A DNA stretch of 64,000 bases from Lysobacteraceae bacterium (GTDB taxonomy: Bacteria > Pseudomonadota > Gammaproteobacteria > Nevskiales > Nevskiaceae), in assembly GCA_013823855.1 (NCBI GenBank), contig PNMW01000032.1, positions 1 through 64,000 of the forward strand, in the 5' to 3' direction. Under the pieces are notes generated by a model. The model saw only the letters and a list, made by a program, of their open reading frames with translations, did not search any database and was not told the DNA's origin. Made by a program: the position numbers and the translations under genes. How positions within the stretch are numbered: position 1 is the first letter of the stretch; each line of letters opens with the position of its first letter. Shown here piece by piece: positions 25,458 through 50,041 of this stretch.

Positions 25458-26165
25458 ATGATTCCCCTGCCACACGCTCACGATTTCTACGACGTACAGC
25501 CTCCGGACGTGCGCGCGGCCATCGACGCGGCCAGCACCTTTCGCGACCTGCCGAAAGGAAGCCAGGTGACGCGGCAGGGCGAGCCGAGCCAGCATCTGCA
25601 TCAGGTGCTCAGCGGCATGGTGAAGGTGTCCTCGGTCAGCCGTGACGGTCGTGAAACCGTCGTTGCGCTGATTCGCACCGGCGGCTGGGTGTCGCTGTCC
25701 GAAATCTTTTCCGGCCTGCCCGGCAATGCCGATGTGACAGCACTCACGCCGGTGCGGATCCGCTCGGTCGCCAGGCCAGCGTTGCTGGCGCTGATGCGCG
25801 ACCACCCGACGATCGCCGAAGAACTGCTGCGGGTGCTGAGCCAGCGTTTCAGCATCCTGTATCACGCCAGCGTCGACCGCTCCGTTCTCGGCCTGAAGGA
25901 ACGCGTGATCAAGGTGCTGTACATCCAGGCCCTGTCCCACGGCACGCCGACTGGCGAAGTGACCATCTCCCTGCCGCAGGAAGAACTGGCCAAGATGCTC
26001 GATGCCGGCCGGCAGGCGCTGAACCGGGTCCTGCAGGAATTGCAGCGGGAAGGCCTGATCGAAGCTGTCTACGGCGCGGTTCGACTGCTGAGCCTGGCTG
26101 CCGTCGAGCGCCGTTACGGCCATCTCATCGACGTCGACCAGCCCGTCGCGATCTATCCGGATTAA
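25458..26165 (+). CDS. CRP/FNR family transcriptional regulator
   Basis: 235 residues. An N-terminal cyclic-nucleotide-binding-type beta roll (LPKGSQVTRQGEPSQHLHQVLSG) is followed by a dimer helix and a C-terminal winged HTH with ISLPQEELAKMLDAGRQALNRVLQEL. No N-terminal cysteine cluster is present, so it is not an Fe-S oxygen sensor like FNR. A conserved cAMP-binding arginine is not obvious, so the effector is unknown. The ATG at 25458 was chosen; a GTG directly precedes it. It is the first gene of the accessory region, and a CRP-architecture palindrome follows 5 bp after its stop, ahead of the next gene. Confidence 0.9.
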   Translation: MIPLPHAHDFYDVQPPDVRAAIDAASTFRDLPKGSQVTRQGEPSQHLHQVLSGMVKVSSVSRDGRETVVALIRTGGWVSLSEIFSGLPGNADVTALTPVRIRSVARPALLALMRDHPTIAEELLRVLSQRFSILYHASVDRSVLGLKERVIKVLYIQALSHGTPTGEVTISLPQEELAKMLDAGRQALNRVLQELQREGLIEAVYGAVRLLSLAAVERRYGHLIDVDQPVAIYPD

Positions 26166-26170
26166 GCGAT

Positions 26171-26186
26171 TGTCGCGCGGACGACA
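26171..26186. promoter_or_regulatory. CRP-type operator candidate (TGTCG-N6-CGACA)
   Basis: A perfect 5-N6-5 inverted repeat with the same geometry as the CRP consensus TGTGA-N6-TCACA. It lies between the regulator stop and the start of the DHSWGPR-motif gene at 26247. A second overlapping palindrome, GACGAC-AGA-GTCGTC (26180-26194), shares half of it. It is the best candidate binding site for the adjacent CRP/FNR-type protein. Confidence 0.45.
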
Positions 26187-26246
26187 GAGTCGTCGGACCG
26201 TTTCCGACTAGCTTTCGGGCGCCTCGTCCGCCTACCGGAATCCGCC

Positions 26247-27254
26247 GTGATCAAACCTGAAGACATCGACTACCACGTCCCCGCCGGGATCGATTACCGC
26301 TACGCGGAGACCAATTACTTCGTGGCCTATGTTCCCGAAGAACGGATCCTCGCCACGTTCTACACGCTGACCCGCAAGGCCATCGGTGTCTGCCTGGTGG
26401 ATGTCGCGATCTTCGGCTGCCTCGCCGACAACCGCTCGGAAATGCTGTACCTGGATACGCAGCAGCAGCTGCCCGCACCGGAACGCCTGAGCCGCTTCGA
26501 GACGCCGAACGGCCTCAAGGTGACGGCGGCGGACCTGCGTCACTACCAGCTCGACTACGTCGGCTTCGATGACACCGAAGCGCACCTGTCGTTCGAAGGC
26601 CTGACCGAGCCGTTCGACATCCACGATCCGGCGCACAGTCCCAGGGCCACGCCGCAGGATGCTGCGGCCCGCGCCGAAGGCTCGGGGCTGGGTGCGGCCT
26701 ACGGCAATCACTTCGACATGAGCTGCCGGGTGACCGGGACGCTCAAAGTGCGTGGCAAGCGCTATCGCGTGGATTGTGTTTCCACGATGGACCATAGCTG
26801 GGGGCCGCGCTGCGAGGTCGGCCTCAAGGCGATGGGCTGGATGAATGCCCATTTCGGACCGGACTATGCGCTGCACTGGATCAACAGCCTCGACCTGAGC
26901 CAGCCCGCCGGCAGGCAGGAAGCGCTGGCGCACGGCTACGTCCTCGAGAACGGCCAACTCCATGGCCTGAAGGACTTGCGGATGATCAGCAACCGCCTCG
27001 GTGCCGTGAATGTCGGCATCGACATCGTCGCCACCGACATCCGCGGCAAGCAGCACACGCTGCATGGCACTGCGGTCGTCGGCGCGCCGTGGTCCTGCTA
27101 CACCGGCGTGATGCTGCAGGTCGCGATGACCCGCTGGATCACCTCGACAGGCCGCATCGGCCATGGGCTCAACATGGAAAACTACCCGCTCGATCAGCTG
27201 GCCCGCCTGCGCGGCCGCCGCTGGGACGCGCCAGCGGGCCGCATCGGTACCTGA
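26247..27254 (+). CDS. DUF7064/CrtC-AttH-like lipocalin-fold protein (DHSWGPR motif), copy 1
   Basis: 335 residues, no signal peptide or TM segment. The C-terminal half contains the motif STMDHSWGPRCE and is beta-rich, resembling tocopherol-cyclase/AttH/hydroxyneurosporene-synthase-like proteins now split into DUF7064/DUF7065. A second protein with the same DHSWGPR motif is encoded at 44971-45897. These proteins occur in clusters acting on lipophilic or terpenoid-like molecules, but no reaction is established. It begins a plus-strand run of five genes with small gaps (20-25 bp), probably one operon controlled from the upstream palindrome. Confidence 0.7.
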   Translation: MIKPEDIDYHVPAGIDYRYAETNYFVAYVPEERILATFYTLTRKAIGVCLVDVAIFGCLADNRSEMLYLDTQQQLPAPERLSRFETPNGLKVTAADLRHYQLDYVGFDDTEAHLSFEGLTEPFDIHDPAHSPRATPQDAAARAEGSGLGAAYGNHFDMSCRVTGTLKVRGKRYRVDCVSTMDHSWGPRCEVGLKAMGWMNAHFGPDYALHWINSLDLSQPAGRQEALAHGYVLENGQLHGLKDLRMISNRLGAVNVGIDIVATDIRGKQHTLHGTAVVGAPWSCYTGVMLQVAMTRWITSTGRIGHGLNMENYPLDQLARLRGRRWDAPAGRIGT

Positions 27255-27274
27255 ACCCCGGAACGCCCTCCATC

Positions 27275-28036
27275 ATGAAAGTACTGATCGTCTACGCCCA
27301 CTCGCAGCCCTCCTCCTTCAACGGCGCACTGCTGCGCACCGCCGTCGAATCGCTGACCGCCGGAGGCCACGAGGTGAAGGTCTCCGACCTCTACGCGATG
27401 GGCTTCAATCCCGTCGCCTCGGCCGCGGACTTTCAGGACCGTCGCTTTGAAGGGCATCTGCAGTACGACCGCGAGCAGAAGCACGCGGTGGAACATCGCA
27501 GCTTCAGCGACGACATCCAGGCCGAGATCGACAAGGTCCTGTGGTGCGAGCTGCTGATCCTGCAGTTCCCGCTGTGGTGGTACTCGGTGCCGGCAATCAT
27601 GAAGGGCTGGTTCGACCGGGTGTTCGCCAACGGCCTGATGTACGGCCAGTTCGGCCGCTTCGACAAGGGCGGCATGAAGGGCAAGCGGGCGATGGTGTCG
27701 ACCACCACCGGCTGCTTTCCCGGCATGGTCGAGGAAGGCGGGGTCATGGGCCATCTCGACGCCGTCCTCTGGCACCTGCAGTACGGCACGCTCGCCTATG
27801 TCGGCTTCGAGGTGCTGGAGCCGTTCGTGACCTGGTCGGTCCGCTACGAAGACGACCAGGCACGGGCGCTCTACCTCCAGGGCCTGGCCGAACGCCTGCG
27901 CCGGATCGATGACGTGCCGCTCAAGGCCCTGCACCCGGTGGACGATTTCGGCAAGGACTGGAAGCTCAAGCCCGGCATCGCAGCGCGCACCTTCGGGCAT
28001 CAGAAACGGCCGGGCACAGAACCCGGGTCGTGCTGA
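27275..28036 (+). CDS. Flavodoxin-fold NAD(P)H:quinone oxidoreductase
   Basis: 253 residues with the NQO/MdaB-like flavodoxin_2 fold (PF02525). The FMN/FAD phosphate loop is IVYAHSQPSSFNGAL, the core strand is ELLILQFPLWWYSVPAIMKGWFDRV and a later loop is MVSTTTGCFPG. It should transfer two electrons from NAD(P)H to quinones or related electrophiles in the cytoplasm. It starts 20 bp after the preceding gene and is probably co-transcribed, where it could reduce or detoxify a quinonoid intermediate of the pathway. Confidence 0.88.
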   Translation: MKVLIVYAHSQPSSFNGALLRTAVESLTAGGHEVKVSDLYAMGFNPVASAADFQDRRFEGHLQYDREQKHAVEHRSFSDDIQAEIDKVLWCELLILQFPLWWYSVPAIMKGWFDRVFANGLMYGQFGRFDKGGMKGKRAMVSTTTGCFPGMVEEGGVMGHLDAVLWHLQYGTLAYVGFEVLEPFVTWSVRYEDDQARALYLQGLAERLRRIDDVPLKALHPVDDFGKDWKLKPGIAARTFGHQKRPGTEPGSC

Positions 28037-28060
28037 AGAATTCAAACCAGGGGAGAACGC

Positions 28061-28855
28061 ATGGCCATTGGCACCCAGTACATCGGCGTCGAAGCAAGAC
28101 CGCTGGACGCGGTGATGCCCGCCCTGCCGCAGGACATCGTCACCGGCATCACCGGCGTGCTGGTGGCGCTGCTGTACTTCTTTGCGCTGTGGCAGGCGTT
28201 TTCGGCGAAGCGCGACGATCGCTGGCTGATCATGCTGGTGGCGGCATCGATCACGATCCTGATGGAGCCGTTCGCCTGTTTCATGGTCAAGGCGCATCAC
28301 CCGGCGGTCGGCGCTCATGTGCTGCTCCGCGGGCTCGACGTGACCGTGCCCTGGCAGTTGCTGTTCTTCTACATCCTGTACTTCGCACCGACCGGCGCCT
28401 ACCTGATCCGGCGGGCCTCGAAAGCTGTTTCGGCAGGCGGCTACTGGCTGGATTTCCTCGGCATTTTCCTGCTGCTCTGGGGCGCCGAGGCGCTCTGCAT
28501 CTGGCTTGGCGTGTGGTTCTTCTACGACTACAACCCGTTCGTGCTCGCCGGCCTGCCGGTCTGGGTGGCGCTGACCAACATCTCGGCGGTCTACGCCTGG
28601 TCGGTCGCCACCGGCTACTGCCTGGATCACCTGAAGGGGGCGGCGCGCTGGACCGCCGTGCTGGCCGCCCCGTTTGCCGCCATTGCCGTCTACGGCCCGG
28701 TCAGCCTGCCCGGCGCGGTCGCCTTGTATCGTGATGGTGCCGGCTTTGACGTCACCGGCCCGGCCTGTGCGGCGAGCGTGCTCGTGGGGCTGGCCTTCAT
28801 CGCCGGCGCGCGACATCTGCTGCTGCTCAGCGCCGGCCGCCTGCGATCCGCCTGA
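28061..28855 (+). CDS. Seven-TM integral membrane protein, function unknown
   Basis: 264 residues with about seven hydrophobic helices: ITGVLVALLYFFALWQAF, LIMLVAASITILMEPF, PWQLLFFYILYFAP, FLGIFLLLWGAEALCIWLGV, VWVALTNISAVYAW, WTAVLAAPFAAIAVYG and ASVLVGLAFIAGA. A strong AGGGGAG ribosome site lies 6-7 nt before the ATG. I do not recognise a named family. The layout resembles small membrane proteins seen beside CrtC/AttH-like genes, so it may hold or modify a membrane-dissolved substrate (inference). It lies between the quinone reductase and crotonase genes. Confidence 0.75.
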   Translation: MAIGTQYIGVEARPLDAVMPALPQDIVTGITGVLVALLYFFALWQAFSAKRDDRWLIMLVAASITILMEPFACFMVKAHHPAVGAHVLLRGLDVTVPWQLLFFYILYFAPTGAYLIRRASKAVSAGGYWLDFLGIFLLLWGAEALCIWLGVWFFYDYNPFVLAGLPVWVALTNISAVYAWSVATGYCLDHLKGAARWTAVLAAPFAAIAVYGPVSLPGAVALYRDGAGFDVTGPACAASVLVGLAFIAGARHLLLLSAGRLRSA

Positions 28856-28880
28856 TTCCCACTGTTCCGGAAGAACCCAC

Positions 28881-29669
28881 ATGTCCACTGAATGCACCGC
28901 CCTGTCGATCGACAACGGCATCGCCCGCCTGCGCCTGACCGATCTGGACAAGGGCAATCCGATCCACCGGCGTTTCTGCGACGCGCTCTGCGACCGCGCC
29001 ATCGAGCTGTCCTGCCGTGACGACGTGCGCGCCGTGCTGGTCACCGCCGAAGGCAAGAACTTCGGCTTCGGCGGCGACATCGCGCATTTCGTCGCCCAGG
29101 GCGATGCGCTGCCGTCGGAGATCAAGCGCATGACCGCCACCATCCACAGCGCGATCGCCAGATTGCAGCGGATGGACGCGCCGATGGTGGTCGCCGTGCA
29201 GGGCGTCTGCGCCGGTGGCTCGGCCGCCTTCGCGGCCGGCTGCGACACCGTGATCAGCGCCGACAATGCCCGCTGGGTCGCCGCCTATGCCGGCATCGGC
29301 TACAGCACCGATGCCAGTGCCACGGTGATGTTCTCGCGCCGCATGGGCCTGGCCCGCGCCCGCAACTTCCTGCTGCGCAACCAGACGCTGGATGCGCAGG
29401 CCGCGCTCGCAGCCGGTCTGGTGGACGAAGTGGTACCTGCAGCCGACCTGCTCGCTCACGCCGAAGCCATCGCCGCCCAGTACGCCGCCGGCCCGACCAA
29501 GGCCTACGGCGAGATCCGCCGCCTGCTGCTGACGGTGCAGAACCAGCCGCTGGAAACCCAGCTCGAACTGGAAGCGCAGGCGCTGGCGCGGGTCGCCGCA
29601 ACCGAGGATGCGCGCGCCGGGCTGTGCGCCTTCAGCGAGAAGCGCAAGCCTGTTTTCACGGGCCGCTGA
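28881..29669 (+). CDS. Crotonase-fold acyl-CoA protein (isomerase-like; hydratase glutamates absent)
   Basis: 262 residues with a crotonase fold. The oxyanion-hole glycines are in NFGFGGDIAHF and QGVCAGGSAAF. Both catalytic glutamates of enoyl-CoA hydratase are replaced: the GGGCE position is Ala116 and the later Glu position is Tyr. Instead there is an Asp144 in AGIGYSTDASAT, the position where PaaG/enoyl-CoA isomerase-type members carry LSPDGGS. It is therefore more likely an isomerase or unusual lyase acting on a CoA ester than a standard hydratase. It sits 25 bp after the membrane-protein gene and 9 bp before the molybdopterin-domain gene. Confidence 0.85.
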   Translation: MSTECTALSIDNGIARLRLTDLDKGNPIHRRFCDALCDRAIELSCRDDVRAVLVTAEGKNFGFGGDIAHFVAQGDALPSEIKRMTATIHSAIARLQRMDAPMVVAVQGVCAGGSAAFAAGCDTVISADNARWVAAYAGIGYSTDASATVMFSRRMGLARARNFLLRNQTLDAQAALAAGLVDEVVPAADLLAHAEAIAAQYAAGPTKAYGEIRRLLLTVQNQPLETQLELEAQALARVAATEDARAGLCAFSEKRKPVFTGR

Positions 29670-29678
29670 AGCCGCGTC

Positions 29679-30377
29679 ATGAAACTGCCGCCCGGACAGC
29701 AGGCGCGCGCCGACTTTCCGCGCTTCGGCCTCGGCAAGTTCGCGCGCCGCTTTCCGGCGACGCCCGAGCGCATCCGCTTCCGCATCGTGGGTGACGTCGG
29801 GCGCGAGGTGACGGTCGAGCATCAACTGCAAGGCCTGCCCCGCGTCGAACAGACGAGCGACTTCCATTGCGTCACCACCTGGTCCGCGCTGGCACGGGGC
29901 TGGAGCGGCTGGCGCTTCTCGGATGTCTACGAACAGCTTGCGCGGCGCGACGCCGCTGCGCCGCCGGAAGCCGAGGTGGTCGTGTTTCGTGGCGAGGACG
30001 GCTACTGCAGCTGCCTGATGCTCGACGACCTGCTCAAGCCCGACGTCATGCTTGCCGACCGCCTCGACGGGCAGCCACTCGGGCTCGGGCACGGCGCGCC
30101 GCTGCGTCTCGTGGCTCCGGCGCATTACGGCTACAAGAACGTCAAGCACCTCGTTGCCATCGAGTTCTGGCGCGATCGGCGGGCCTACCGCTTCCCGTTC
30201 CCGTATCCCGCGCTGATGGACCATCCACGTGCCCGGGTCGCCTTCGAGGAACGCGGGCGCTGGATTCCCGGCGCCATCCTGCGCCGCCTGTATCGGCTGA
30301 TCATCCCGCTGACAGTCTGGAACTTCGCACGAGCGCTGAACGAGCATCGCCGCCGCACATCGATGTCAATCCGTTGA
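29679..30377 (+). CDS. Molybdopterin-dependent oxidoreductase (sulfite-oxidase-type domain), stand-alone
   Basis: 232 residues of PF00174 type with presumed Mo-ligand Cys64 in TSDFHCVTTWS and the conserved GYKNVKHLVAIEFW near the C-terminus. No signal peptide, no haem or dimerisation domain, so it is a minimal cytoplasmic-looking SUOX domain. It is the last gene of the 26.2-30.4 kb operon (9 bp after the crotonase) and converges on the desaturase-fusion gene. A second, pentapeptide-fused member is at 17996-19042. The substrate is unknown. Confidence 0.83.
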   Translation: MKLPPGQQARADFPRFGLGKFARRFPATPERIRFRIVGDVGREVTVEHQLQGLPRVEQTSDFHCVTTWSALARGWSGWRFSDVYEQLARRDAAAPPEAEVVVFRGEDGYCSCLMLDDLLKPDVMLADRLDGQPLGLGHGAPLRLVAPAHYGYKNVKHLVAIEFWRDRRAYRFPFPYPALMDHPRARVAFEERGRWIPGAILRRLYRLIIPLTVWNFARALNEHRRRTSMSIR

Positions 30378-30424
30378 ACGGATGCCCCGCAAGGAATCCG
30401 GGATTCTGATCGACGCGACTGCGC

Positions 30425-32296
30425 TCAAAGGTCGATGGACAGCCGATCCGCCTTGGCGCGGGACACGCACAGGCACATCTGGGTGTTGGCGGCCTTCTCG
30501 GTCTCCGACAGGTAGGCGTCGCGGTGATCGACGTCACCACTCACCACCTTGACCACGCAGGTGCCGCAGGTGCCCTGCATGCAGGCGTAGCGCGGGTCGA
30601 TGCCGGCGTGCTGCAGCGCATCCAGAATCGACTGGCCGGCCTGCACGGGAACGTCCTTGTTCGAGCGCTCCAGATGCAGGGTGAACGCGTGGTTGCTGCC
30701 GTCGGTGCTGATCGGGGCCGAGAACGATTCGATACGGACGTTCTCCGGCAGCCAGCCCTGCTTGACTGCCGCTCCGCTGAGCCAGTTCATGAAGCCGCCC
30801 GGGCCGCAGATATAGATCTGCGCATCGGCGTCGGGGCGGGCGAAGATCGTTTCCGGTGAAAGGGTCGATCCGCCTTCCGGCTTGTCGAGATGAATCGTCA
30901 CGTGGCGGGCGAGGCGGCTCACGCTCAGTTCGTCCTTGAACGGCACCGCGTCCTCGTTGCGGGCGCAGACGTGCAACTCGAAATCCTTGCCGAGACGGAT
31001 CAGGCGATGCGCCATCGCCAGCATCGGGGTGATGCCGATACCGCCGGAGATCAGGATGAAGCGCCGGGCGTTCTCGTACAGCATGAAGTTGTTCTTCGGC
31101 GGGCTGATGCGCAGCACGTCGCCGACGGCGAGCGCGTGCATGGCACGCGAGCCGCCGCGGCCCTTGTCGTCGCGCTTGACCGCGATGCGGTAGCGGTTGC
31201 GAACGTCATCGTGCTCCACCAGCGAATACTGGCGGATCAGCTTGTCGTTGACGAATACCGTCATGTGCGCGCCGGCCGCGCCTTCGGGCAGCAGCGCGTT
31301 CGGGTCGGTCGGTTCGAAATCGAAGGAGCGGATGTCTTCGCCGACTTCGCGGATTGCGGTGATCCGCACTTCGATGGGTGCTGCGACTTCGTCGCCCGGC
31401 ACGCGGATGTCGCCCTCGATCCCCTTCAGCCAGCCGCGCTGCGGAATCGCCTGCTTGCGCAGCACGCCGTTGGCCAGGTCCCAGACGCGGCGATAGCGGT
31501 ACCAGGGCAGGTGCGGCAGCAGGTGGTGGATGTGGTGGTTCTCCTGGCCGAACATCAGACCGCGCAGCGGCGAGGTTTCGAAGATGTGCACGGTGGACTG
31601 GAACGGCTGCTTTTCCCAGGACATGCCATGCGGGTGCTGGATGTGGGCGAAGGTGTAGGCGACCAGGCCCAGGCCGAGGCGCTGCGGCACCACATACAGC
31701 AGCAGGAATTCCGCCCAGTACGGTGACGCCAGGAACAGCGCGTGCAGGCCGATCACCGTGGCCATCATCACGTACACATACATCTTGATCTTCGGCGACC
31801 AGTGCGCGCGTCCGTTCTTGAAGAACCAGAACAGCCAGTGGATGTCGGTGAACATCAGGTAGGAGATGCCGGCCCACTTCGGCACATCGACCAGACCCGC
31901 GTCGGGATCGCGCCCTTCCTGGCCGACGTAGCGGTGGTGGTCCATGTGGATCGCGCGGAACGCGGGCATGTTCATGCCCGGCAGCAGGATCTGGCCGGCC
32001 AACGTTCCGAGCAGGTCATTGACGAAGCTGTCGGAGGACACCGAGCGGTGCGAGCCGTCGTGCATCGGCGTGAAGGCGAGGAACACCGCGACGATGTTGA
32101 ATGCCACCGCCAGCCATCCCGGGATGGCATCCACCAGATAGCCGTAACAGGACAGGCCGAAGGTCGCGAGCGACGCGGAGGTCAGCAGGATCTGCACGAC
32201 GTCGTATTTGTGCATCCGCATCACGTCGTCGTAATGCGGATCATGGGTGATCTGGCTGAGGACCTCGCGGACGGAGGCGTTGGCTGTGACGGTCAT
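30425..32296 (-). CDS. Membrane fatty-acid desaturase/hydroxylase fused to ferredoxin reductase and [2Fe-2S] ferredoxin
   Basis: 623 residues in one chain. Residues about 30-290 form a membrane di-iron desaturase with three His boxes, HDGSH (79-83), HMDHH (117-121) and HHIHHLLPH. Residues about 310-530 are an FAD/NAD(P) reductase (RQYSL flavin motif, GGIGITPM nucleotide loop, ICGPGGFM). The last about 80 residues are a plant-type ferredoxin (CMQGTCGTC plus a fourth Cys near the end). The enzyme carries its own electron chain from NAD(P)H to the di-iron site. It should desaturate or hydroxylate a hydrophobic substrate at the inner membrane. It has a 359-bp leader with a palindrome. Confidence 0.9.
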   Translation of the reverse strand: MTVTANASVREVLSQITHDPHYDDVMRMHKYDVVQILLTSASLATFGLSCYGYLVDAIPGWLAVAFNIVAVFLAFTPMHDGSHRSVSSDSFVNDLLGTLAGQILLPGMNMPAFRAIHMDHHRYVGQEGRDPDAGLVDVPKWAGISYLMFTDIHWLFWFFKNGRAHWSPKIKMYVYVMMATVIGLHALFLASPYWAEFLLLYVVPQRLGLGLVAYTFAHIQHPHGMSWEKQPFQSTVHIFETSPLRGLMFGQENHHIHHLLPHLPWYRYRRVWDLANGVLRKQAIPQRGWLKGIEGDIRVPGDEVAAPIEVRITAIREVGEDIRSFDFEPTDPNALLPEGAAGAHMTVFVNDKLIRQYSLVEHDDVRNRYRIAVKRDDKGRGGSRAMHALAVGDVLRISPPKNNFMLYENARRFILISGGIGITPMLAMAHRLIRLGKDFELHVCARNEDAVPFKDELSVSRLARHVTIHLDKPEGGSTLSPETIFARPDADAQIYICGPGGFMNWLSGAAVKQGWLPENVRIESFSAPISTDGSNHAFTLHLERSNKDVPVQAGQSILDALQHAGIDPRYACMQGTCGTCVVKVVSGDVDHRDAYLSETEKAANTQMCLCVSRAKADRLSIDL

Positions 32297-33144: not shown

Positions 33145-33175
33145 GGTGATGTGCCTTCAGTGGAAGGAGAAGGGT

Positions 33176-37356: not shown

Positions 37357-37400
37357 TGGCGTAGGCGACCCCAAGAAAGAGGACGCAGTCTGATTGACCA

Positions 37401-37424
37401 GTGACCAATTCGTCAAATGGTCAC
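37401..37424. promoter_or_regulatory. TetR operator site 1 (adaptor-permease promoter)
   Basis: GTGACCA and TGGTCAC arms separated by 10 nt (24 bp in all), 45 bp before the adaptor start codon. The same arms with the same spacing recur at 38097-38120; beyond the arms the shared flanks (GTGACCAAT, ATGGTCACA) also match. Its position predicts repression of the adaptor-permease transcript. Confidence 0.8.
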
Positions 37425-41320: not shown

Positions 41321-41358
41321 CGGGCGGCCGGCTCCGGGGAATCGGAGCGGGCCGCCCG
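41321..41358 (+). other. Strong hairpin between SDR and DUF1302 genes
   Basis: CGGGCGGCC pairs with GGCCGCCCG and, inside it, GCTCCG pairs with CGGAGC around a 6-nt loop, with single-base bulges. No T-run follows. It could terminate the SDR transcript in a Rho-assisted way or structure the 5' leader of the DUF1302 mRNA. Confidence 0.5.
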
Positions 41359-41438
41359 GGAACTCGACCGGGCCACGGCCGGCCCGTCGAACACCCGGTG
41401 CGGCACCTGGCCGCAACCACCACCAGAAAGGGAGCGGG

Positions 41439-43541
41439 ATGCGTATGTCCAACACAAGGCGTTGGGGATGGATCGTGGCCGGCATCGCCGGTTTCGCAAG
41501 CGGTAGCGTGCAGGCGGCCGGCGGCGCCGGCTCGAAGTTTCTCGGCGCGGATTTCTCGTACAACGGCTTCGTTCGCTTCGACGTGGCCTTCAGTACCGAT
41601 GATCGCGTGCAGCAGGCCAATCAGTTCGGTGATCTTGCCAATGGCGTGCCGGTCCGGCGCGAGCCGGGCAACCCCGCCCTTGGCTTTGCCGTGCCGCTGC
41701 AGCCGACCGATGCGCTGATCGGCCCGGCCGGCATCATTCCGCTGTCCGGCCTGGGGGTCTTGCCGCCGACGCTCGGCGTCAGCCAGCAGGTCGGGCTCAA
41801 TGACACCGTGACCCGCTACGTGCCGCAGAAGAACCAGCTGCTGAACTACCACCTGCTGCGTTTCGAGATCACCCCGACCTTGTCCTGGGGCGACTGGTCG
41901 CTGATCACCCGCCTGCGGGCCGTCTACGATCCCGACGATCTCGGCTACACCGACTTCGACTACCGCGTCTACGACAACATCAACGGCGGCATCGAAGGCG
42001 GCCTGTCGCGGCAGTACCACACGACGCCGGACAAGCTCGGCTACCAAGTGGAAGGCAACAAGAACCCGATCTTCTTCGAGCGTTCCGGCCGCAACTACAT
42101 GGTCGATCTGCCGGCCTTCTTCGTGCAGTGGAACAGCGGCAACACCACGGTGCGCGTCGGCAACCAGACGGTGGCCTGGGGTCAGCTGCTGTTCTTCCGC
42201 ATCATGGACACCGCCAACGGCCTCGACCTGCGTCGTCACCTGATTCTCAACCGTGCGTTGGAGGAATACGCCGACGTCCGGGCGTCGGCACCGGGCATCC
42301 GCATCACCCAGCAGGTCACCGATCAGATTTCGGCTGATTTCTTCGCCCAGCAGTTCATCCCGACGGTGATCAACAACGTCAACACGCCGTACAACGTGGT
42401 GGCCTCGCAGTTCACGCTGCACGATCGCTACGACCAGGGCGGCTACAACAAGAACCTCAATTACGGCATCCGCTTCAAGGGCGAGTTCGGCAACTACAGC
42501 CTGCAGGCGATGTTCACGCACCGCTACAACCCGCTGGGTGCGATCCGCTGGAGCCGGTCCGGCATCAACAAGGCGCTGCCGAATACCAACGTCCTGGGCC
42601 TCGCCTTCAACCAGTACTGCAATCTCGTGCTGGGTACCGCCGCCCAGGGTTGTGGTCCGATCCTCGCCGAAACGCCGTTCGAAGCGTCGCCGGCCGGCCT
42701 GTTCAGCGCCGAGGAGTGGTTCAATTATGCGGGCTACCAGAAGCTCGACGGGCTCGACGGCTTCAACGCCGTGGTGCGCGATTTCGATGCCGCACGCCTG
42801 TTGCTGGTCCGCGACATCGGCCAGAACGCCGATGCTGCGGCCAACACGCTGAGTGCCGTCTTCATTGCCGGTGAAGGCCTGCGCGGCCACATCGAACGCC
42901 ACTACTTCTCCGAGAACGTGTTCGGCCTCGGCGGCGGCTACGTGACCGAAGCGGAACCGGGTTCGATCTTCGACCAGATCATCATGAATCTGGAAGCCAC
43001 CTACACGCCGAAGCGGGTGTTCACCTCGATCGATCTGGGCAGGAACTTCGACAAGCGCGAGGAAATCCAGATCGGCTTCGTGGCCGAGAAGTACCAGCGC
43101 TTCTCGACCGAGTTCCCGGCCACCTTCCTGGTGTTCCAGTACCTCTGGCAGAAGAACAGCGACCTCGTCGGCTTCCTGCTCGATGGCTACGGCAGCGAGA
43201 ACTACAGCCGCAACGGTGTGGTGCTCGATGCCCATGTTCCGACCAGCGCCAACCCGAAGATCACCCCTGGAATCGGTGCCGGTGCGAATTACGTCGTGTT
43301 CGGTGCGCTGCAGCCATTCCCGAACTACGTCTACGAACTCAGCGCCGTGACGCTGATCGACGTACAGGGCGGCGTGCTGTTCCAGCCCGGGCTGCAATGG
43401 AAGCCGCGCGGCAACCTGACGGTGAACCTGTTCTACAACTTCGTTCACGACAACGCCTGGGGCAACAACCCGAACAAGAACCTGATGCACCTGATCAGCC
43501 AGACCAACGAACTGGCGATCCGCCTTGGCTACCAGTTCTGA
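41439..43541 (+). CDS. DUF1302 family outer-membrane protein, second copy
   Basis: 700 residues with a signal peptide (ending SGSVQAAGG) and the DUF1302-type body: FEITPTLSWGDWSLITRLRAVYD, VRVGNQTVAWGQ and many aromatic beta-strands. It ends in ELAIRLGYQF with a terminal Phe. It is clearly a paralogue of the protein at 1838-4336 but shorter, and no DUF1329 partner is adjacent. GGGAG precedes the ATG at 41439; an ATG six bases later is an alternative. Its place among SDR, efflux and desaturase genes supports an envelope role in moving the pathway's hydrophobic substrate. Confidence 0.88.
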   Translation: MRMSNTRRWGWIVAGIAGFASGSVQAAGGAGSKFLGADFSYNGFVRFDVAFSTDDRVQQANQFGDLANGVPVRREPGNPALGFAVPLQPTDALIGPAGIIPLSGLGVLPPTLGVSQQVGLNDTVTRYVPQKNQLLNYHLLRFEITPTLSWGDWSLITRLRAVYDPDDLGYTDFDYRVYDNINGGIEGGLSRQYHTTPDKLGYQVEGNKNPIFFERSGRNYMVDLPAFFVQWNSGNTTVRVGNQTVAWGQLLFFRIMDTANGLDLRRHLILNRALEEYADVRASAPGIRITQQVTDQISADFFAQQFIPTVINNVNTPYNVVASQFTLHDRYDQGGYNKNLNYGIRFKGEFGNYSLQAMFTHRYNPLGAIRWSRSGINKALPNTNVLGLAFNQYCNLVLGTAAQGCGPILAETPFEASPAGLFSAEEWFNYAGYQKLDGLDGFNAVVRDFDAARLLLVRDIGQNADAAANTLSAVFIAGEGLRGHIERHYFSENVFGLGGGYVTEAEPGSIFDQIIMNLEATYTPKRVFTSIDLGRNFDKREEIQIGFVAEKYQRFSTEFPATFLVFQYLWQKNSDLVGFLLDGYGSENYSRNGVVLDAHVPTSANPKITPGIGAGANYVVFGALQPFPNYVYELSAVTLIDVQGGVLFQPGLQWKPRGNLTVNLFYNFVHDNAWGNNPNKNLMHLISQTNELAIRLGYQF

Positions 43542-43863: not shown

Positions 43864-44952
43864 TCAGCCTGCGCGCGCCAGCTCGGCGAAGCTGTCGAGA
43901 TCGCGAACCTGGGCGGCGGTGCGGGCGATCCAGTTCTGCCACATGCGGTCGCCGCGAGGTGAACGCTTGACGGCGCCGAGGCCGAACACGCCGATCTGCA
44001 GGCCGTGGATGGCATTGCGCCGGTAGTCGCTCCAGCAGCGTTCGCGGCTGTAGTCGCGAACGCCATGGCCGATCAGGGTGGCGTGATAGTGGTCGACCAG
44101 CGCCCGCTCGTGGCTGCGCCGCTCGCGCGTGGCCATGCTGGTGCCCAGCCACTAGGCGACGTCGACGGTGCCGAGGCCGTAGCCCAGGCCCTGCCAGTCG
44201 AGGATCACCACCGGACGCTGGCCGCCGCAGGCCTCGAACATCACGTTGTCGGCGCGCAGGTCGCTGTGCCACAGGCACTGCGGCGTGCTGAACACCTGCT
44301 TCCAGCGCTCGGCATGGGCGATCAGCTTCGCCGCTTCCTGCAGGTCCTGATCCGGCACCAGATCGCCGCAGCGTTCCGGGAAGCGCTGGACGATGTCGGC
44401 GAAGGCGTCGGTGGCGTGACTGAAGATCGTCAGCGGGCTTTGCAGCCAGTCCACCGCGGCCAGCTCGGCGGCATGCCAGCTCCCGGCATGAAGTGCCGCG
44501 GCCTGCTCCAGCACCCGGGCCGATTCGTCGGCGCTGCAGCCGTCGAGCTGGTCGACCTGGCGCGCCGGCGCCAGGTCTTCCATCAGCAACACGAAATCGG
44601 TCTGGTTGGCGTCGAGCGCGGCATGTACCGCGACCGGCACCGAGACCGGTACCCGGGACGCCAGCTCGCGGTAGAAGCCGATCTCGCTGCGGTAGTAGCC
44701 GCTGCTGCGGCCGAACTCGCGGCTGGTGGCGTCGCGGGACGCGAACTTGGCGACCCAGGTCGTGGCCGCCGCGGTCGGGCGGTCGTAGCGCACCGTGTAG
44801 CGGAACGAATCGGCCAGCTGGCCGACGCCGCAGGCTGCGCGCTGGATATCGACGATCTGCTCGGCGCCGATGCGGCCGGCCTCGCGCAGCACGGCGCCCA
44901 GCCAGGCGGCATCGACGGCGTCGACCGGCGGCACGGCGGAGATCGGGTCCAT
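43864..44952 (-). pseudogene. APH-family phosphotransferase interrupted by an in-frame amber codon
   Basis: Read through in one frame this is a 362-residue aminoglycoside-phosphotransferase-fold kinase (PF01636/EcKL-like). The catalytic loop is CLWHSDLRADNVMF (HxDxxxxN) and the metal Asp is in VVILDWQGLGYG. A single TAG at 44152-44154 (codon 267) interrupts ...GTVDVA-stop-WLGTSMATRERRSHE. Family members typically have DVAY(F/W)LGTS there, so a Tyr codon most likely became TAG. About 95 residues of the C-terminal lobe follow intact and in frame. It lies 18 bp downstream of the DHSWGPR gene in the same operon. Sequencing error or readthrough are alternatives. Confidence 0.85.
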
Positions 44953-44970
44953 CGGCGGCTCCTGGCGGAA

Positions 44971-45897
44971 TCAGCCGTAAGTCTGGACGTGCTGGCGCGC
45001 GAATTCGAGGTAGTTGCGGTTCCAGCAGAACTCGCACCAGCCGGTGCCGGCTTCGCCGTCGACGCCGAGCGTCAGCGCCGCTTCGTTCAGATAGATCATC
45101 GGATCGAATTCGAGCTGGATGTTGGCGAAGGCCCGGGCCTCGACGACCGCGCGGCGGCCGGCGACATCGACGACGGAGGCGCGCAAGGTCTTGTGCATCA
45201 TCTGGCCGTCGAAGCTGTAGTCGCAGTCGACGCTGGCCAGATGCTCCATCACGCCGTCGCGGTGCAGGAAGCCGCGCAGCTGGACGCGGCCGAAGGAATG
45301 CATCTCGAAGAAGTGGATCGAGCAGCTGGCGGTGATCGCGTGGAACCACTTGTAGTGCTGGTTCAGGCCCCAGATGCGCGGCCCCCAGGAATGATCGCGA
45401 ACCAGCCAGCCCTCGGCCTTCACCGCCCGGCCATCGACGGCCAGATCGCAGACGACGCGGCCATGCTGCTCGGTGCGATCGTCGCCGTAGTACGGCGGAT
45501 TGCCGAGCGGATGCATGCTGAACGCGTACGGCGGGTGCCTCGCTTCGAAGCGGCCGTCGAACTGGATGCGCGTGCCCTGCCAGGACAGGTCGACGGTCTG
45601 GTGCGGTTTCAGCACCGCCATCCGCAGCGGGCCGGTCTGCCAGTCGTCGAAGTCGAGGCTGTCCGGCACCGGGCCGTCGATCTCCTCCTGCACCGGCTCG
45701 GGCAGGCCCGGGCCGAACAGGTGGGCGCGGCCCTTCGCGTGACCGGTGCTCAGTACCGTCGGGTAGATGAAGCCGGCGATGCCGTGCTCCGGGAACATCA
45801 GCATGTGAGCCAGCGATTCGCGGCCGCCGTCGCGCATCCGGTGGCGCATCGCATGGGCCGCCGGGAAGTCGGTGGCGATCTCGGTCAAGGTCGGCAT
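44971..45897 (-). CDS. DUF7064/CrtC-AttH-like lipocalin-fold protein (DHSWGPR motif), copy 2
   Basis: 308 residues, cytoplasmic-looking, beta-rich. It contains WLVRDHSWGPRIWGLNQHYKWFHA, the same DHSWGPR core as the protein at 26247-27254, with low similarity elsewhere, plus a C-terminal GTGWCEFCWNRNYLEF segment with two cysteines. It starts at ATG 45897, between the DUF2834 gene (41 bp upstream) and the broken phosphotransferase. The duplicate suggests two related steps or a pair of binding proteins in one pathway. The reaction is unknown. Confidence 0.72.
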   Translation of the reverse strand: MPTLTEIATDFPAAHAMRHRMRDGGRESLAHMLMFPEHGIAGFIYPTVLSTGHAKGRAHLFGPGLPEPVQEEIDGPVPDSLDFDDWQTGPLRMAVLKPHQTVDLSWQGTRIQFDGRFEARHPPYAFSMHPLGNPPYYGDDRTEQHGRVVCDLAVDGRAVKAEGWLVRDHSWGPRIWGLNQHYKWFHAITASCSIHFFEMHSFGRVQLRGFLHRDGVMEHLASVDCDYSFDGQMMHKTLRASVVDVAGRRAVVEARAFANIQLEFDPMIYLNEAALTLGVDGEAGTGWCEFCWNRNYLEFARQHVQTYG

Positions 45898-45938
45898 GGT
45901 GTGCCTCGGGCAGTCGTGCGTCAGACGCCAGGCCTTGC

Positions 45939-46295
45939 TCAGCCGGCGGGGGTCCTGCGGCCGTCGAGGAAGCGTTCGCGGGTGACCAGGTAGACCGGGA
46001 AGGTGAACGACACGCCGATGTACGAAAGGGCGACGAAGAACCAGCCCCACTTGGCGCCCATGCCGATGCGCTGCGCGTCGTAGACCACCCAGATCATGAA
46101 CACCAGCCAGGCGATCGCCATGTCGATGGACAGGAAGGCGGCCGTGCCGCCGGCGTTGATCGCATCGCCGAAGAACTGGAAGGGATCGAGGATGGTGCCG
46201 CCGCCGCGCATCCAGTCGAAGGCGTGCGGCCAGGTGAGCAGCATGGCGGCGATGCCGAGGATGATGAACAGGCCGTGCTTGATGTTCTGGGTCAT
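45939..46295 (-). CDS. DUF2834 small membrane protein
   Basis: 118 residues with three TM helices (HGLFIILGIAAMLLTW, MAIAWLVFMIWVVYDAQRIG, WGWFFVALSYIGVSFTFPVYL) and the central FQFFGDAINAGGTAAFLSIDM segment typical of DUF2834 (PF11196). It is encoded 32 bp after the PF10118 gene in the same minus-strand operon. The family function is unknown; it tends to occur near catabolic genes for lipophilic compounds. Confidence 0.85.
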   Translation of the reverse strand: MTQNIKHGLFIILGIAAMLLTWPHAFDWMRGGGTILDPFQFFGDAINAGGTAAFLSIDMAIAWLVFMIWVVYDAQRIGMGAKWGWFFVALSYIGVSFTFPVYLVTRERFLDGRRTPAG

Positions 46296-46327
46296 GTCGG
46301 AACGTTGGGGCGGGGTGGCGGGGAGGG

Positions 46328-47170: not shown

Positions 47171-47178
47171 GGTGTTCC

Positions 47179-47190
47179 TCCAAGCTTGGA
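47179..47190. promoter_or_regulatory. Palindrome overlapping the ribosome binding site of the PF10118 gene
   Basis: TCCAAGCTTGGA is a perfect 12-bp palindrome whose minus-strand copy runs into GGAGGA, 5 nt before the start codon. It could be a regulator site near the transcript start or a hairpin that hides the Shine-Dalgarno. Confidence 0.4.
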
Positions 47191-47314
47191 ATTTTTGTCG
47201 ACGGAGCTTCTCAGCGATGGTCGGCGGAAACGCCCCCCGCCAGGGGTGGGGCGATGGGTGGGACGCCGGCCGACAGCGGGTGGTTGCGGCGCTCGACGCG
47301 CTAATCTTTCGCCG

Positions 47315-50041
47315 ATGAATGCCCGCAAGTCGCCGAAACCGCAGCTCCCGCTCGTCGAAGCACGCCTGTCGCCACCGGCGGTGCCGCCGCTGCGGCTCCG
47401 GCGCGAAGGCCTGTGTGGCGAGGTGCTCAAGCGCCTCGACGGACCCGCGAGCATCGTCTCGATCCTGGCGCCTGCGGGCCACGGCAAGACCAGTCTGCTG
47501 CGCCTGCTGCACGCCGAATGCGTGCAGCGGTCGCGCGCCGTCGCCTGGCTGTCGCTGGCCGACGATGCCGGCGACGCCGAACAGCTGCTGGCCTATCTCG
47601 TCGCCAGCCTGGCCCGCGCCGGATTGAGCGCCGCCGGTGGCGCAGCCCCGCCGACGGTATCCGCGCTCCTCAATGCGCTGGCGCGCCTGCCGGAGCCGGT
47701 GGTCCTGCTGGTCGACCAACTGGAACGGCTGCAGCGCCCGGACGGGCTGCATGCGCTGCAGCTGTTGCTGGATGTCCCGACCCCCGGCCTGCGCGTGGTA
47801 CTGGCCGGTCGCCACAACCCGGGCCTGCGCTTGAGCGGCTGGCTGGCGGCGCGTCGACTGACAGCCATCGAGCCCGCCGAACTCGCCTTCAGCTTCGCCG
47901 AGACCACGGACTACGTGATCGGTGAATGCAAGGAATCGCCGGGTGCGGTCGCGCTCAGCGACATCCACGAACGCAGCGAGGGCTGGCCGGGGCTGCTGAG
48001 CCTGATGATCGCCAGCCTGCCGCGCGATGCCACGCTGGAGAACGCGGTCCGCGACGGCCTGCTGCCGCGCCGGCAGGTCGCCGCCTATGTCGCCGAGGAA
48101 GTGCTGTCCGGCCTGCCTGACGACGATCGTCAGGCGCTGGAGGTGCTGGCGCTGGCCGGTGTCGCCGATGAACGCCTGATGCGCCACGTCCACGCCGACA
48201 GCACCGCGCCATCGCTGGATGCGCTGGCGGCGCGCAATCCGCTGGTGCGCACCCGTGGCGCCGATCGTTACGCGCTGCACCCGGTGGTCCGCGACAGCCT
48301 GCGCAGCCATCTCGCAGCCGAAGCGCCGGCCCGCTTCCGGGCGCTGTCGGCCCGGCTGGCGGAATGGGCCGGCAGCCAGAAGGACGCGGCAACGGCGATC
48401 GACCGCTGGATCGACGCCGGGGACGCGGCGCAGGCCGGCGCCCTGCTGGAAGCGGAAGGCCGGAACATCGCGCTGGAAGGCTTTCCGAACCGCTGTCTGG
48501 ACTGGCTGGACCGCCTGCACGCCACGCACCTCGAACGCCACCCCGGCCTGCAGCTGACCGAGGTCTGGGCGCGCGTCACGATGCACGAAACGACGGCCAC
48601 CGCCGCCTTGCTGGCCTCGCAGCGCCTGAAGGCGGCGCAGCGGCGCAATGCCGCGCTGGATATCGAAGTGAAAACCGCGACGGCGTTCAGCCATGCGATC
48701 TCCGATCATGTCGAGGCCGCAGCGGCGGCCGTTGCTGCGGTGCCGGACGAGGCCCGGCAGATGAGTGCCGTGGTCAACGCCGGCTGTGCCAGCGTGTTCG
48801 CCTGGACCCAGTTTGTCCGTGGCGAATTCGACGGCGCGCGGCGCACGCTGTACCAGTCCGGCGCGCTCGACATGCAGGGCCAGGGTCTGTTGACCCATGC
48901 CTATGCCGCCGTGGTCTCCGGTGAATGCGATGCCGCCGAAGGTCGCATGCAGAGTGCGGAAACGATCCTGCGCCGCGCCGTGAAACTGGCCGAAGACCGG
49001 CGCGGCCGCCGCTCGATGGTGGTCGTGGTGACACTAGGGCCGCTGCTGGAAGTGCTCTACGAACGCGACCAGATCGACGAGGTGCTGGCGTTGGCCAGTG
49101 GCCGCGAACACCTGCGCCTGAAGTACTCGACGCCGGGCAGCAGCACCGCCGCCGGCGTGGCGCTGGCCCACAGCCTGATGCTGCGCGATGCCGCCGCCGA
49201 AGCCCGCGAAATGCTCGACGACATGCTGCGGGTCGGCGAGGAAAGCCGGTTGCCGAGGATCGTCGCCCACGCGCTGGCGACGCGGATCCAGTTCGCGCTG
49301 CGCGAGGGGCGCAGCCACGAGCTGGCCGAACTCGTCGGCCGCCTCGATGCGCTGCGCGACGATGCCGCCGGCTTGCTCAGCTCGCCGCAGGGCGTCATCA
49401 ATTACTGGGCCCGGGTGTCGGCGCTGCGCATCGCGGCCGGCCGCGGCTCGCTGGCCGCTGCGCGCCGGGACGCCGCTGCACTGGCCGCCGAGCTGAAGCC
49501 CTTGCCCTGGCTGCGCATGCGCCTGTCGGTCGACACGCTGGCTGCCAGCCTGGCCTGGCAGGCCGGGGATGCCGTCGCCGCTGTCGAGGCGCTCATTCCG
49601 GTGCTGGTCGCCGGCGCCGAACGGGGCCTGATCCGCAGCATCGTCGACGCGCTGGCAGATTCCGCGCTGCTCGATGCGCCCGAACTGCGCAAGGCGCTGC
49701 CGGCGCCGCTGCTGGGCTATCTGGATCGCCTGAAGGGCGCGATGGCGGTCGGTGTTCCGGTGCCGGCCGGCGGTCATCGCATGCTCGCGCCCGGCAGCGG
49801 CTGGACCGATGCGACGCTGAGCGGCGCCAAGGCGGGTTTCACGGCGCGCGAACGGGAAATCCTGTTCCTGCTGGCCCGCGACATCGCGACCAAGCGCATC
49901 GCCCAGACCTTGCGGATCTCGCCGGAAACGGCGAAGTGGCACACGCGCAACATCTACGAAAAGCTGGGCGTCCACGACCGCGCATCGGCCCGGATGGCGT
50001 TGCAACGCCTGCAGATGACCGGCGACGGGGGGCGCAGCTGA
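47315..50041 (+). CDS. MalT/LAL-type LuxR family transcriptional regulator
   Basis: 908 residues. An N-terminal STAND-type ATPase has Walker A APAGHGKTSLLRLLH near residue 55 and Walker B PVVLLVDQLE near 130. A long helical (TPR-like) sensor region covers about 330-800. The C-terminal LuxR HTH is GFTAREREILFLLARD ... SPETAKWHTRNIYEKLGVHDRASA. Such proteins bind an inducer and ATP, oligomerise and activate nearby promoters. The gene is divergent from the PF10118-DUF2834-DHSWGPR operon across 144 bp, making that operon the likely target. The inducer is unknown. Confidence 0.92.
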   Translation: MNARKSPKPQLPLVEARLSPPAVPPLRLRREGLCGEVLKRLDGPASIVSILAPAGHGKTSLLRLLHAECVQRSRAVAWLSLADDAGDAEQLLAYLVASLARAGLSAAGGAAPPTVSALLNALARLPEPVVLLVDQLERLQRPDGLHALQLLLDVPTPGLRVVLAGRHNPGLRLSGWLAARRLTAIEPAELAFSFAETTDYVIGECKESPGAVALSDIHERSEGWPGLLSLMIASLPRDATLENAVRDGLLPRRQVAAYVAEEVLSGLPDDDRQALEVLALAGVADERLMRHVHADSTAPSLDALAARNPLVRTRGADRYALHPVVRDSLRSHLAAEAPARFRALSARLAEWAGSQKDAATAIDRWIDAGDAAQAGALLEAEGRNIALEGFPNRCLDWLDRLHATHLERHPGLQLTEVWARVTMHETTATAALLASQRLKAAQRRNAALDIEVKTATAFSHAISDHVEAAAAAVAAVPDEARQMSAVVNAGCASVFAWTQFVRGEFDGARRTLYQSGALDMQGQGLLTHAYAAVVSGECDAAEGRMQSAETILRRAVKLAEDRRGRRSMVVVVTLGPLLEVLYERDQIDEVLALASGREHLRLKYSTPGSSTAAGVALAHSLMLRDAAAEAREMLDDMLRVGEESRLPRIVAHALATRIQFALREGRSHELAELVGRLDALRDDAAGLLSSPQGVINYWARVSALRIAAGRGSLAAARRDAAALAAELKPLPWLRMRLSVDTLAASLAWQAGDAVAAVEALIPVLVAGAERGLIRSIVDALADSALLDAPELRKALPAPLLGYLDRLKGAMAVGVPVPAGGHRMLAPGSGWTDATLSGAKAGFTAREREILFLLARDIATKRIAQTLRISPETAKWHTRNIYEKLGVHDRASARMALQRLQMTGDGGRS

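Follow-up and report, generated by a model that had tools for sequence, protein, structure and literature searches.

An apparent mosaic of catabolic and efflux modules in a Lysobacteraceae genome, with a putative kinase-DUF7064 pair for the dehydration of hindered alcohols via a phosphoester

Genes encoded between tRNA-Thr and the LuxR regulator

The window considered in the current analysis is a stretch of 64,000 nucleotides from a Lysobacteraceae bacterium, and the region of interest (25458-50041) follows a tRNA-Thr gene (24999-25074), as the first-pass annotation had noted. All the genes named in that annotation have been identified close to their proposed positions, nearly all of them by Pfam searches. 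The start of the first coding sequence is moved to 25455, and that of the LuxR gene probably lies near 47315. The region is made up of several transcription units running in opposing directions.

A group of forward-strand genes, referred to here as module A, begins with a CRP/FNR-type regulator (25455..26165) having Pfam cNMP_binding and HTH_Crp_2 domains. It further comprises a quinone reductase-like protein with a Flavodoxin_2 domain (FlavQR, 27275..28036), a membrane protein with seven transmembrane segments (7TM, 28061..28855), a crotonase with the Pfam ECH domain (28881..29669) and a protein consisting of a stand-alone Oxidored_molyb domain assigned by Pfam (29679..30377). On the same strand, at 26247..27254, lies the first of two proteins with a DHSWGPR motif, DUF7064a, which is assigned to DUF7064/DUF7065 in Pfam and is a candidate phospho-alcohol lyase.

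The minus strand encodes a fusion of a membrane desaturase/hydroxylase with an FAD/NAD/2Fe-2S reductase (30425..32296), recognised by FA_desaturase and FAD/NAD/Fer2 domains and by its His boxes, and a member of the af470-like monooxygenase family PF13826 (32656..33144), which we take to be the family called DUF4188. The parts of the RND pump, described earlier as complete and TetR-controlled, are all found by Pfam (module C): the permease (33176..36244), the membrane-fusion protein of the MFP family (36241..37416) and the TetR regulator (37442..38056) on the minus strand, and the outer membrane efflux protein of the OMF family (38150..39631) on the plus strand. Two short-chain dehydrogenases follow on the plus strand, SDR1 (39685..40428, Pfam) and SDR2 (40472..41290, Pfam), the latter scoring over the cut-off of the PRK06179 subfamily model, and then a DUF1302 outer-membrane barrel (41439..43541, Pfam). 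A minus-strand run consists of a predicted metal-dependent protein of the Pfam family PF10118 (46328..47170), a small membrane protein of Pfam DUF2834 (45939..46295), the second DHSWGPR protein and candidate phospho-alcohol lyase, DUF7064b (44971..45897), known from Pfam, its predicted fold and its profile, and an APH/EcKL-type kinase gene (43864..44952). The MalT-like LuxR regulator (47315..50041, plus strand, Pfam) is divergent from PF10118.

The kinase gene had been noted as broken, and it is indeed interrupted after codon 266 by a TAG in frame (44152-44154). The N-terminal piece (44152-44952) matches APH (E 3.4e-14) and EcKL (E 1e-9), and the C-terminal piece lies downstream in the same frame, which stays open for 95 more codons.

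The 7TM protein was rightly called an orphan, having no Pfam or NCBIfam match at an E-value of 0.001. Its model (pLDDT 89.6) finds no significant fold match in the PDB (best E 0.055). Weak matches to DUF817 occur in 2 of 11 members of the family (best E 5.4e-4), and E69, P97, Y104, E143, P159 and P166 are invariant among the 11 sequences. Pyr4-like transmembrane terpene cyclases (PMC13307353) were considered as possible relatives of it. The gene is present in six of 146 related genomes including its own (E 1e-5), and none outside its own genome was found among the 369 genomes of a class sample (E 1e-6).

The crotonase was described as glutamate-less, and neither of the two Glu positions of the classical enoyl-CoA hydratases holds a Glu in it. 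It retains an Asp that aligns with an Asp of 3hrx, a residue that is catalytic in PaaG. Because of this Asp the protein looks from its sequence like a PaaG-like isomerase and not a dead enzyme, with a score under the cut-off of the NCBIfam PaaG model.

Conservation of the modules in related genomes

The first-pass annotation had interpreted the region as a single system of uptake, oxidation and export. In the relatives its parts are scattered at different sites, and the conserved units comprise 2-5 genes that lie apart from one another. The modules observed are CRP-FlavQR-7TM-crotonase-molybdopterin, the RND quartet, PF10118-DUF2834 with LuxR, and DUF7064-kinase. An ortholog of the CRP/FNR regulator (74% identity) adjoins FlavQR in the genome G013 (L021), and the Oxidored_molyb gene adjoins the crotonase also in G013 and in a second genome, G002. 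The divergent arrangement of PF10118 and LuxR recurs in both of these genomes, and SDR1 is joined to the RND pump in G005 too.

A check for co-occurrence of the DHSWGPR genes with the desaturase fusion and PF10118 had also been suggested. Among 34 DUF7064b loci, three of which duplicate other loci, counting matches that cover more than 40% of the query in flanks of up to 10 kb, PF10118 is encoded at one; the desaturase fusion, DUF4188, the RND pump, FlavQR, 7TM and DUF1302 are encoded at none. The desaturase fusion has five other near-full-length places in four other genomes (146 searched, its own included), and no conserved partner was found at these. The relatives of window genes there are a crotonase of 26% identity (L005), weak SDRs (L007) and a DUF1302 protein of 37% identity (L008, G029). 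With so few other places and no close window-gene neighbours at them, the fusion was rejected as an anchor of the locus.

Several instances of proximity would be in keeping with a coordinated system that takes up, oxidises and exports a single class of hydrophobic compounds and processes them as CoA derivatives. In G002 some 13 kb separate the RND quartet from the DUF7064/PF10118 group, both falling within about 21 kb; in G014 DUF1302 and PF10118 are on one contig, about 14 kb apart; and in G005 RND-SDR-SDR is kept, along with remnants of the kinase and of DUF1302. Two of the 34 loci (L040, L045) encode a relative of the window crotonase, with 57% and 51% identity, within 5 kb of DUF7064, and DUF2834 is close to DUF7064-kinase in the plasmid loci L086 and L087. 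These cases give some support to a loose linkage of modules. In G002, however, the contig that carries the DUF7064 group has FlavQR about 0.97 Mb and DUF1302 about 1.2 Mb away from it, and the neighbours of the desaturase fusion elsewhere are without close kinship to the window genes. Since the kept units are short and scattered, the claim of one system is unsupported, and on the neighbourhoods and the 34-locus counts it has been rejected as very improbable. The general theme proposed earlier, of hydrophobic compounds, oxidation and CoA chemistry, does fit. The region, in a genome that is most likely of the Nevskiaceae, looks like a mosaic in which catabolic and efflux modules are each conserved on their own, rather than a single pathway, and the apparent 25-kb 'system' is not a sensible unit of study.

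DUF7064 proteins and their associated kinases

The part of the region that tells most is DUF7064b together with the kinase gene next to it. The model of DUF7064b (pLDDT 95, pTM 0.92) has a predicted fold of a two-domain lipocalin-like barrel. In the PDB, 25-phosphosteroid lyase chains account for all five of its best matches (E 1.6e-15 to 7.7e-14, TMq 0.71-0.73), among them 9g4c (E 1.6e-15, TMq 0.72), with only 15-16% identity in the fold alignments. The profile built from DUF7064b (A3) reaches the same lyase with a whole-sequence E-value of 3.9e-6, over an alignment that spans the motif, its best single stretch having an i-E of 0.0028; no other solved protein is matched by this profile at E up to 1. 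The single sequence of DUF7064b does not find the lyase at E up to 1, and the DUF7064a profile (A5) gets to it only at E 0.019.

Both window copies read DHSWGPR, the Asp of DUF7064b being D168. In the 79 sequences covering the motif, which include near-identical ones and duplicate loci, Asp is retained in 78 and Arg in all 79. The lyase structure 9fzn reads RDRSWGVR and the product complex 9g4c reads RNRSWGVR, the motif Asp being replaced by Asn in the deposited complex. In its predicted fold and its D-S-W-G-R residues DUF7064b thus resembles 25-phosphosteroid lyase, and from sequence and model the DUF7064 proteins are likely to be phosphoester lyases of this type. No mention of DUF7064 or DUF7065 was found in the limited set of literature searched.

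A kinase is encoded in 29 of 41 DUF7064 loci and in none of 38 remaining loci. The latter are a non-random set: 35 had been collected on account of other genes of the window, and three (L056-L058) have a partial DUF7064 match; with these three added to the DUF7064 loci the count is 29/44. An unnamed gene of about 175 residues, c3, often accompanies the kinase and occurs in 20 of the 41 loci and none of the 38. These counts and the kinase distances below in 40 loci and for 39 kinases omit the self-loci L001 and L059 and the duplicates L043, L025 and L026 (of L010, L012 and L013), and L054 was placed by hand among the DUF7064 loci, tblastn showing DUF7064 there. Twelve of the 41 loci are without a kinase by our in-house gene caller, which overlooks some genes: tblastn finds a kinase in two of them (L027, L051) and a cut piece in L033. 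Below-cut traces are present in two of the 38 remaining loci, a remnant in L065 and a sequence of 25% identity in L083. The kinase is within 3 kb of DUF7064 in 25/40 and, by tblastn, in 19 of the 34 DUF7064b loci. Of 39 kinases, 29 have a DUF7064 gene at most 200 bases away and in the same orientation. DUF7064a has no adjoining kinase in the window; its six closest orthologs (L015-L020) each directly adjoin one.

Uninterrupted relatives of the window kinase occur in L011 (G002), L012, L014 (G030) and L052, that of L011 being 68% identical to the window piece. An uninterrupted kinase-c3-DUF7064 set (L022) is encoded elsewhere in the same genome, with its kinases, on contig C38, and the DUF7064b copy in the window may be inactive or dependent on these kinases. 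The window-type kinase finds no solved kinase with its single sequence, and its profile gives at best 3ats at E 0.083, below significance. Another kinase type, c0, matches 3ats, which we take to be Rv3168, with an E-value of 9.6e-16. The c3 protein has no Pfam match at 0.001 (one member) or 0.01 (five members) and no NCBIfam match (one member).

The DUF7064-kinase set also recurs on sphingomonad and actinobacterial plasmids. Twelve plasmid regions fetched by kinase match were picked from 17 and 18 matching records; DUF7064 is present in only six, two of these matches (L097, L100) being weak and without a Pfam match, and L095 is without DUF7064, though it has a distant kinase as well as a c3-like gene. 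Plasmids of R. ruber and R. aetherivorans show the order DUF7064-kinase-c3-kinase, the last kinase being 63% identical to that of L011. In several hosts CYP or alkane-monooxygenase genes adjoin the set, and for this reason oxygen is probably used.

Proposed reaction and its alternatives

With moderate confidence, and on sequence, models and analogy, we suggest that within this mosaic locus the kinase and the DUF7064 lyase would dehydrate a hindered alcohol via a phosphoester. The kinase, uninterrupted in relatives, would phosphorylate a hindered hydroxyl, probably tertiary and isoprenoid-like, at the expense of ATP. The DUF7064 barrel would then eliminate the phosphate using the Asp of the DHSWGPR motif, leaving an alkene open to further oxidation.

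The same kinase and lyase logic is seen in the anaerobic degradation of cholesterol by Sterolibacterium denitrificans, where, according to PMC8449060 and PMC7411048, a 25-hydroxysteroid kinase step on the side chain precedes a phosphate-eliminating lyase, at that time unidentified. According to PMC8449060, the surroundings of the kinase gene there contain no lyase candidate, whereas here and in many relatives the kinase and DUF7064 genes adjoin. The proposed reaction is also supported by the relation of kinase type c0 to ACAD11 (8v3v) and by the phosphorylation of 4-hydroxyacyl-CoAs that precedes elimination in ACAD10/11 (PMC11342911, PMC12440821). In M. tuberculosis, Rv3168 and Rv3169 are neighbouring genes of one operon, for which the available part of PMC5340868 gives no enzymatic function. 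The Rv3169_fam model matches DUF7064b with an E-value of 8.2e-10, yet at 38 bits against a curated cut-off of 150.

Two alternatives are each considered unlikely. In the first, the DUF7064 proteins would be hydratases of the CrtC/kievitone-hydratase type converting an alkene to a tertiary alcohol, the kinases serving another step. The DUF7064b fold is shared with the hydratase, with Diels-Alderases and with AttH, and kievitone hydratase (7a0t, E 4.1e-12) is the next fold match after the lyase. The CrtC-like barrels, namely AttH, kievitone hydratase and the decalin-forming Diels-Alderases, have the same two domains and score below 25-phosphosteroid lyase, which is moreover the one solved protein reached by the profile; to our knowledge none of the three acts on a phosphorylated substrate. 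The repeated direct adjacency of kinase and DUF7064 also argues against a hydratase.

In the second, assigned the same low probability, the pair would act on hydroxyacyl-CoAs in the manner of LvaA/ACAD11. ACAD10/11 are described in PMC11342911 and PMC12440821 as phosphorylating 4-hydroxyacyl-CoAs, followed by elimination. LvaA/LvaC and ACAD10/ACAD11 share the sequence of APH-type kinase, phosphoester and elimination, but their eliminating partner is an acyl-CoA dehydrogenase, which DUF7064 would replace here. The match of kinase type c0 to ACAD11 (8v3v, E 1e-11) and the acyl-CoA dehydrogenase or CoA ligase genes near several such kinases are consistent with this reading. The best relative of DUF7064, however, works on a free steroid side chain and not a CoA ester, going by the PDB entry name and ligand.

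A broader proposal, which we regard as possible though doubtful, extends the kinase-lyase reaction to a general mobile cassette of DUF7064, APH/EcKL kinase and c3 for the ATP-driven dehydration of tertiary isoprenoid-like alcohols, with 7TM as a new membrane enzyme family. The cassette part covers proteobacteria and actinobacteria and horizontal movement; the 7TM part cites the two invariant glutamates.

The proposed phosphoester elimination gives two domains of unknown function, DUF7064 and DUF7065, a reaction that can be tested. Tertiary alcohols are closed to direct further oxidation, and a kinase and a lyase with linked genes would provide a widespread bypass of this block. It would explain the recurring kinase beside DUF7064 genes, mycobacteria included. 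If true, the cassette carries the chemistry of anaerobic cholesterol degradation over to many substrates, and the Rv3169-type family would gain a function.

Conserved units of the region

The window is situated on contig C18 (70,001 bases) of a genome of 3.87 Mb in 87 contigs that is 88% complete. Genes were called from codon-position G+C and Pfam scans, with gene starts refined afterwards, and the gene inventory of the first-pass annotation was confirmed. The region 25458-50041 comprises several opposed transcription units, running from CRP to the molybdopterin protein (+), from the desaturase to TetR (-), from OMF to DUF1302 (+) and from PF10118 to the kinase (-), followed by LuxR (+). The window's left end (273-4336) carries DUF1329 and a second DUF1302 gene.

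Nine window proteins were searched against 146 related genomes (own genome counted in), and the neighbourhoods were compared with the window genes. The conserved units in these relatives are short. Module A is found as CRP-FlavQR-7TM-crotonase-molybdopterin in G013 (FlavQR being a Flavodoxin_2 quinone reductase-like protein), as FlavQR-crotonase-molybdopterin with a 7TM remnant in G002, as FlavQR-crotonase in G030, and as FlavQR with the other genes of the module missing in G032. The site in G013 (L021) is without DUF7064a (26247..27254, +), whose six closest orthologs are in another conserved operon with a kinase directly adjoining each. In module B, the PF10118-DUF2834 pair occurs in G002, G010, G013 and G014, in G013 and G014 without adjoining DUF7064b or kinase; LuxR is divergent from PF10118 in G002 and G013, and the kinase adjoins DUF7064b (44971..45897, -) in G030. 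G010 belongs to the same genus as the window genome. Module C, the RND-MFP-TetR-OMF quartet, is encoded in G002, G013, G005, G048, G010 and G021, and partially (RND, MFP, OMF) in G053, which has a 45% SDR2-like gene adjoining the pump. Only G005 has SDR1-SDR2 behind the quartet, and its DUF1302 and kinase genes are reduced to fragments. The short DUF1302, kinase and CRP gene fragments behind RND-SDR-SDR in this genome (L065:12590-14209) represent the window arrangement in decay.

The desaturase fusion has five further near-full-length places among the 146 genomes, where the sole matches to window genes nearby are a crotonase at 26%, weak SDRs and a DUF1302 at 37%. A single contig of G002, whose assembly has 10, carries DUF1302 at about 0.05 Mb, FlavQR at about 0.27 Mb and the DUF7064b group at about 1.25 Mb. 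The named relatives of DUF7064b, which include Nevskia and Panacagrimonas records, provide 34 loci; the desaturase fusion, DUF4188, RND, FlavQR, 7TM and DUF1302 are found in none of them, PF10118 in one and DUF2834 in two. The proposal of a single system for oxidation and transport of lipophilic molecules is therefore unsupported, the units being short and scattered in relatives.

Looser proximities are also observed. RND is about 13 kb from the DUF7064/PF10118 group in G002, and DUF1302 about 14 kb from PF10118 in G014. Two loci, L040 of Novosphingobium resinovorum and L045 of a Sphingomonadales bin, encode a relative of the window crotonase less than 5 kb from DUF7064 (57% and 51%, respectively). 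DUF2834 is near DUF7064-kinase on plasmids of Mycobacterium paragordonae and Sphingopyxis macrogoltabida, in the latter adjoining an alkane monooxygenase. These proximities suggest a common theme and no fixed pathway.

The window crotonase looks PaaG-like and not a dead enzyme. The 7TM protein, with relatives of 18-27% identity in G012, G017 and G035, gave a confident predicted model that has no significant counterpart among solved structures, and it remains an orphan. Distant relatives are present at L078, L079, L080, L081, L083 and L084; tblastn detects two of them in L081, where a third was recognised solely from the alignment. Near these relatives, L078 and L081 carry Rieske oxygenase genes, and L081 also encodes an amine-oxidase-like protein.

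Similarity of DUF7064 to 25-phosphosteroid lyase

The DUF7064b model, built from a 24-relative alignment, has a pLDDT of 95 and pTM of 0.92. The top five Foldseek matches in the PDB are chains of 25-phosphosteroid lyase (E 1.6e-15 to 7.7e-14, TMq 0.71-0.73), followed by kievitone hydratase, Diels-Alderases and AttH. A single-sequence search with DUF7064b against solved proteins gave no match. The profile of the 24-relative alignment has this lyase as its sole solved-protein match at E <=1, with two distinct sequences at E 3.9e-6 and 3.3e-5 and a best single stretch of i-E 0.0028; the DUF7064a profile matches it weakly (E 0.019). The profile alignment falls on the motif, where DUF7064b reads RDHSWGPR, 9fzn RDRSWGVR and 9g4c RNRSWGVR. 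The last of these entries contains phosphate and desmost-1,4-diene-3-one, and its Asp to Asn change is presumably a replacement by the depositors to trap the product. Of 79 DUF7064 sequences covering the motif, near-identical ones included, all have the Arg and 78 have the Asp.

Kinases and c3 genes adjoining DUF7064

Of 41 DUF7064 loci, 29 have an APH/EcKL-type kinase and 20 the c3 gene by hidden Markov models built for this analysis. These models detected neither gene in the 38 remaining loci; 35 of these loci were retrieved through other window genes, and the other three (L056-L058) have partial DUF7064 matches only. The kinase is within 3 kb of DUF7064 in 25 of 40 loci, and by tblastn in 19 of the 34 named loci. 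A same-strand DUF7064 gene is at most 200 bases away for 29 of 39 kinases, and c3 at most 100 bases away for 24 of 39. The DUF7064-kinase-c3 trio is tandemly repeated in L034, L037, L038 and L041. The c3 protein (L017:3483-4031 and relatives, about 175 residues), which adjoins such kinases in proteobacteria and actinobacteria, has no Pfam or NCBIfam match among the members scanned. Small COX3-like and COX4-like genes are close to DUF7064 at L010:10687-11570, L040:3800-4722 and L022:14504-15396.

The c3 query retrieved plasmids of Rhodococcus opacus, R. ruber and N. resinovorum, with DUF7064 and kinase in all three fetched regions. Kinase queries retrieved 17 and 18 plasmid records; DUF7064 is present in six of 12 regions fetched by kinase match (two of the six weak), and both records with a kinase more than 60% identical to that of L011 have the order DUF7064-kinase-c3-kinase. 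The conjugative plasmid pISP1 of Sphingomonas sp. MM-1 (L085) carries DUF7064-kinase-c3-MmgE/PrpD-alcohol dehydrogenase, with linA and linX some 5 kb away and an IS6100 copy in between.

Contig C38 of the window's own genome (L022:5969-15396) encodes an uninterrupted set, kinase-c3-DUF7064-DUF7064-kinase-c3-acyl-CoA dehydrogenase-MarR, followed by a 246-residue protein and the COX3/COX4-like genes, with frames open throughout. G016 (L023) has a resembling layout. The window kinase (43864..44952, -) is stopped in frame after 266 codons and only a fragment of the gene is left in G005; the window copy may therefore be decaying.

Proposed phosphoester route

In Sterolibacterium, a kinase phosphorylates the tertiary 25-hydroxyl, and subsequent elimination of the phosphate yields an alkene, as described in PMC8449060, PMC7411048 and PMC11061730. 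PMC8449060 states that the lyase gene was not known in 2021 and that no candidate was close to the kinase gene. ACAD10/11 and LvaA are described to act on 4-hydroxyacyl-CoAs by phosphorylation and then elimination (PMC11342911, PMC12440821). Kinases of the c0 type, found beside DUF7064, match 3ats, 9o56, 9fsg and ACAD11 (8v3v); the window-type kinase forms a subgroup distinct from c0, tied to solved kinases through shared Pfam families only.

On these parallels, the most likely mechanism would be a kinase-then-DUF7064 route, in which the kinase would convert a hindered alcohol and ATP to a phosphoester, and DUF7064 would convert this to an alkene and phosphate with the motif Asp as base. For the activity, the substrate and the role of c3 in this route, we infer what is proposed here. 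The chemistry would be of a kind common to the Sterolibacterium pair and DUF7064-kinase, whereas the gene arrangement of the latter is its own. This candidate kinase-lyase pair, of known chemical kind but with its own gene arrangement, is the part of the region worth following.
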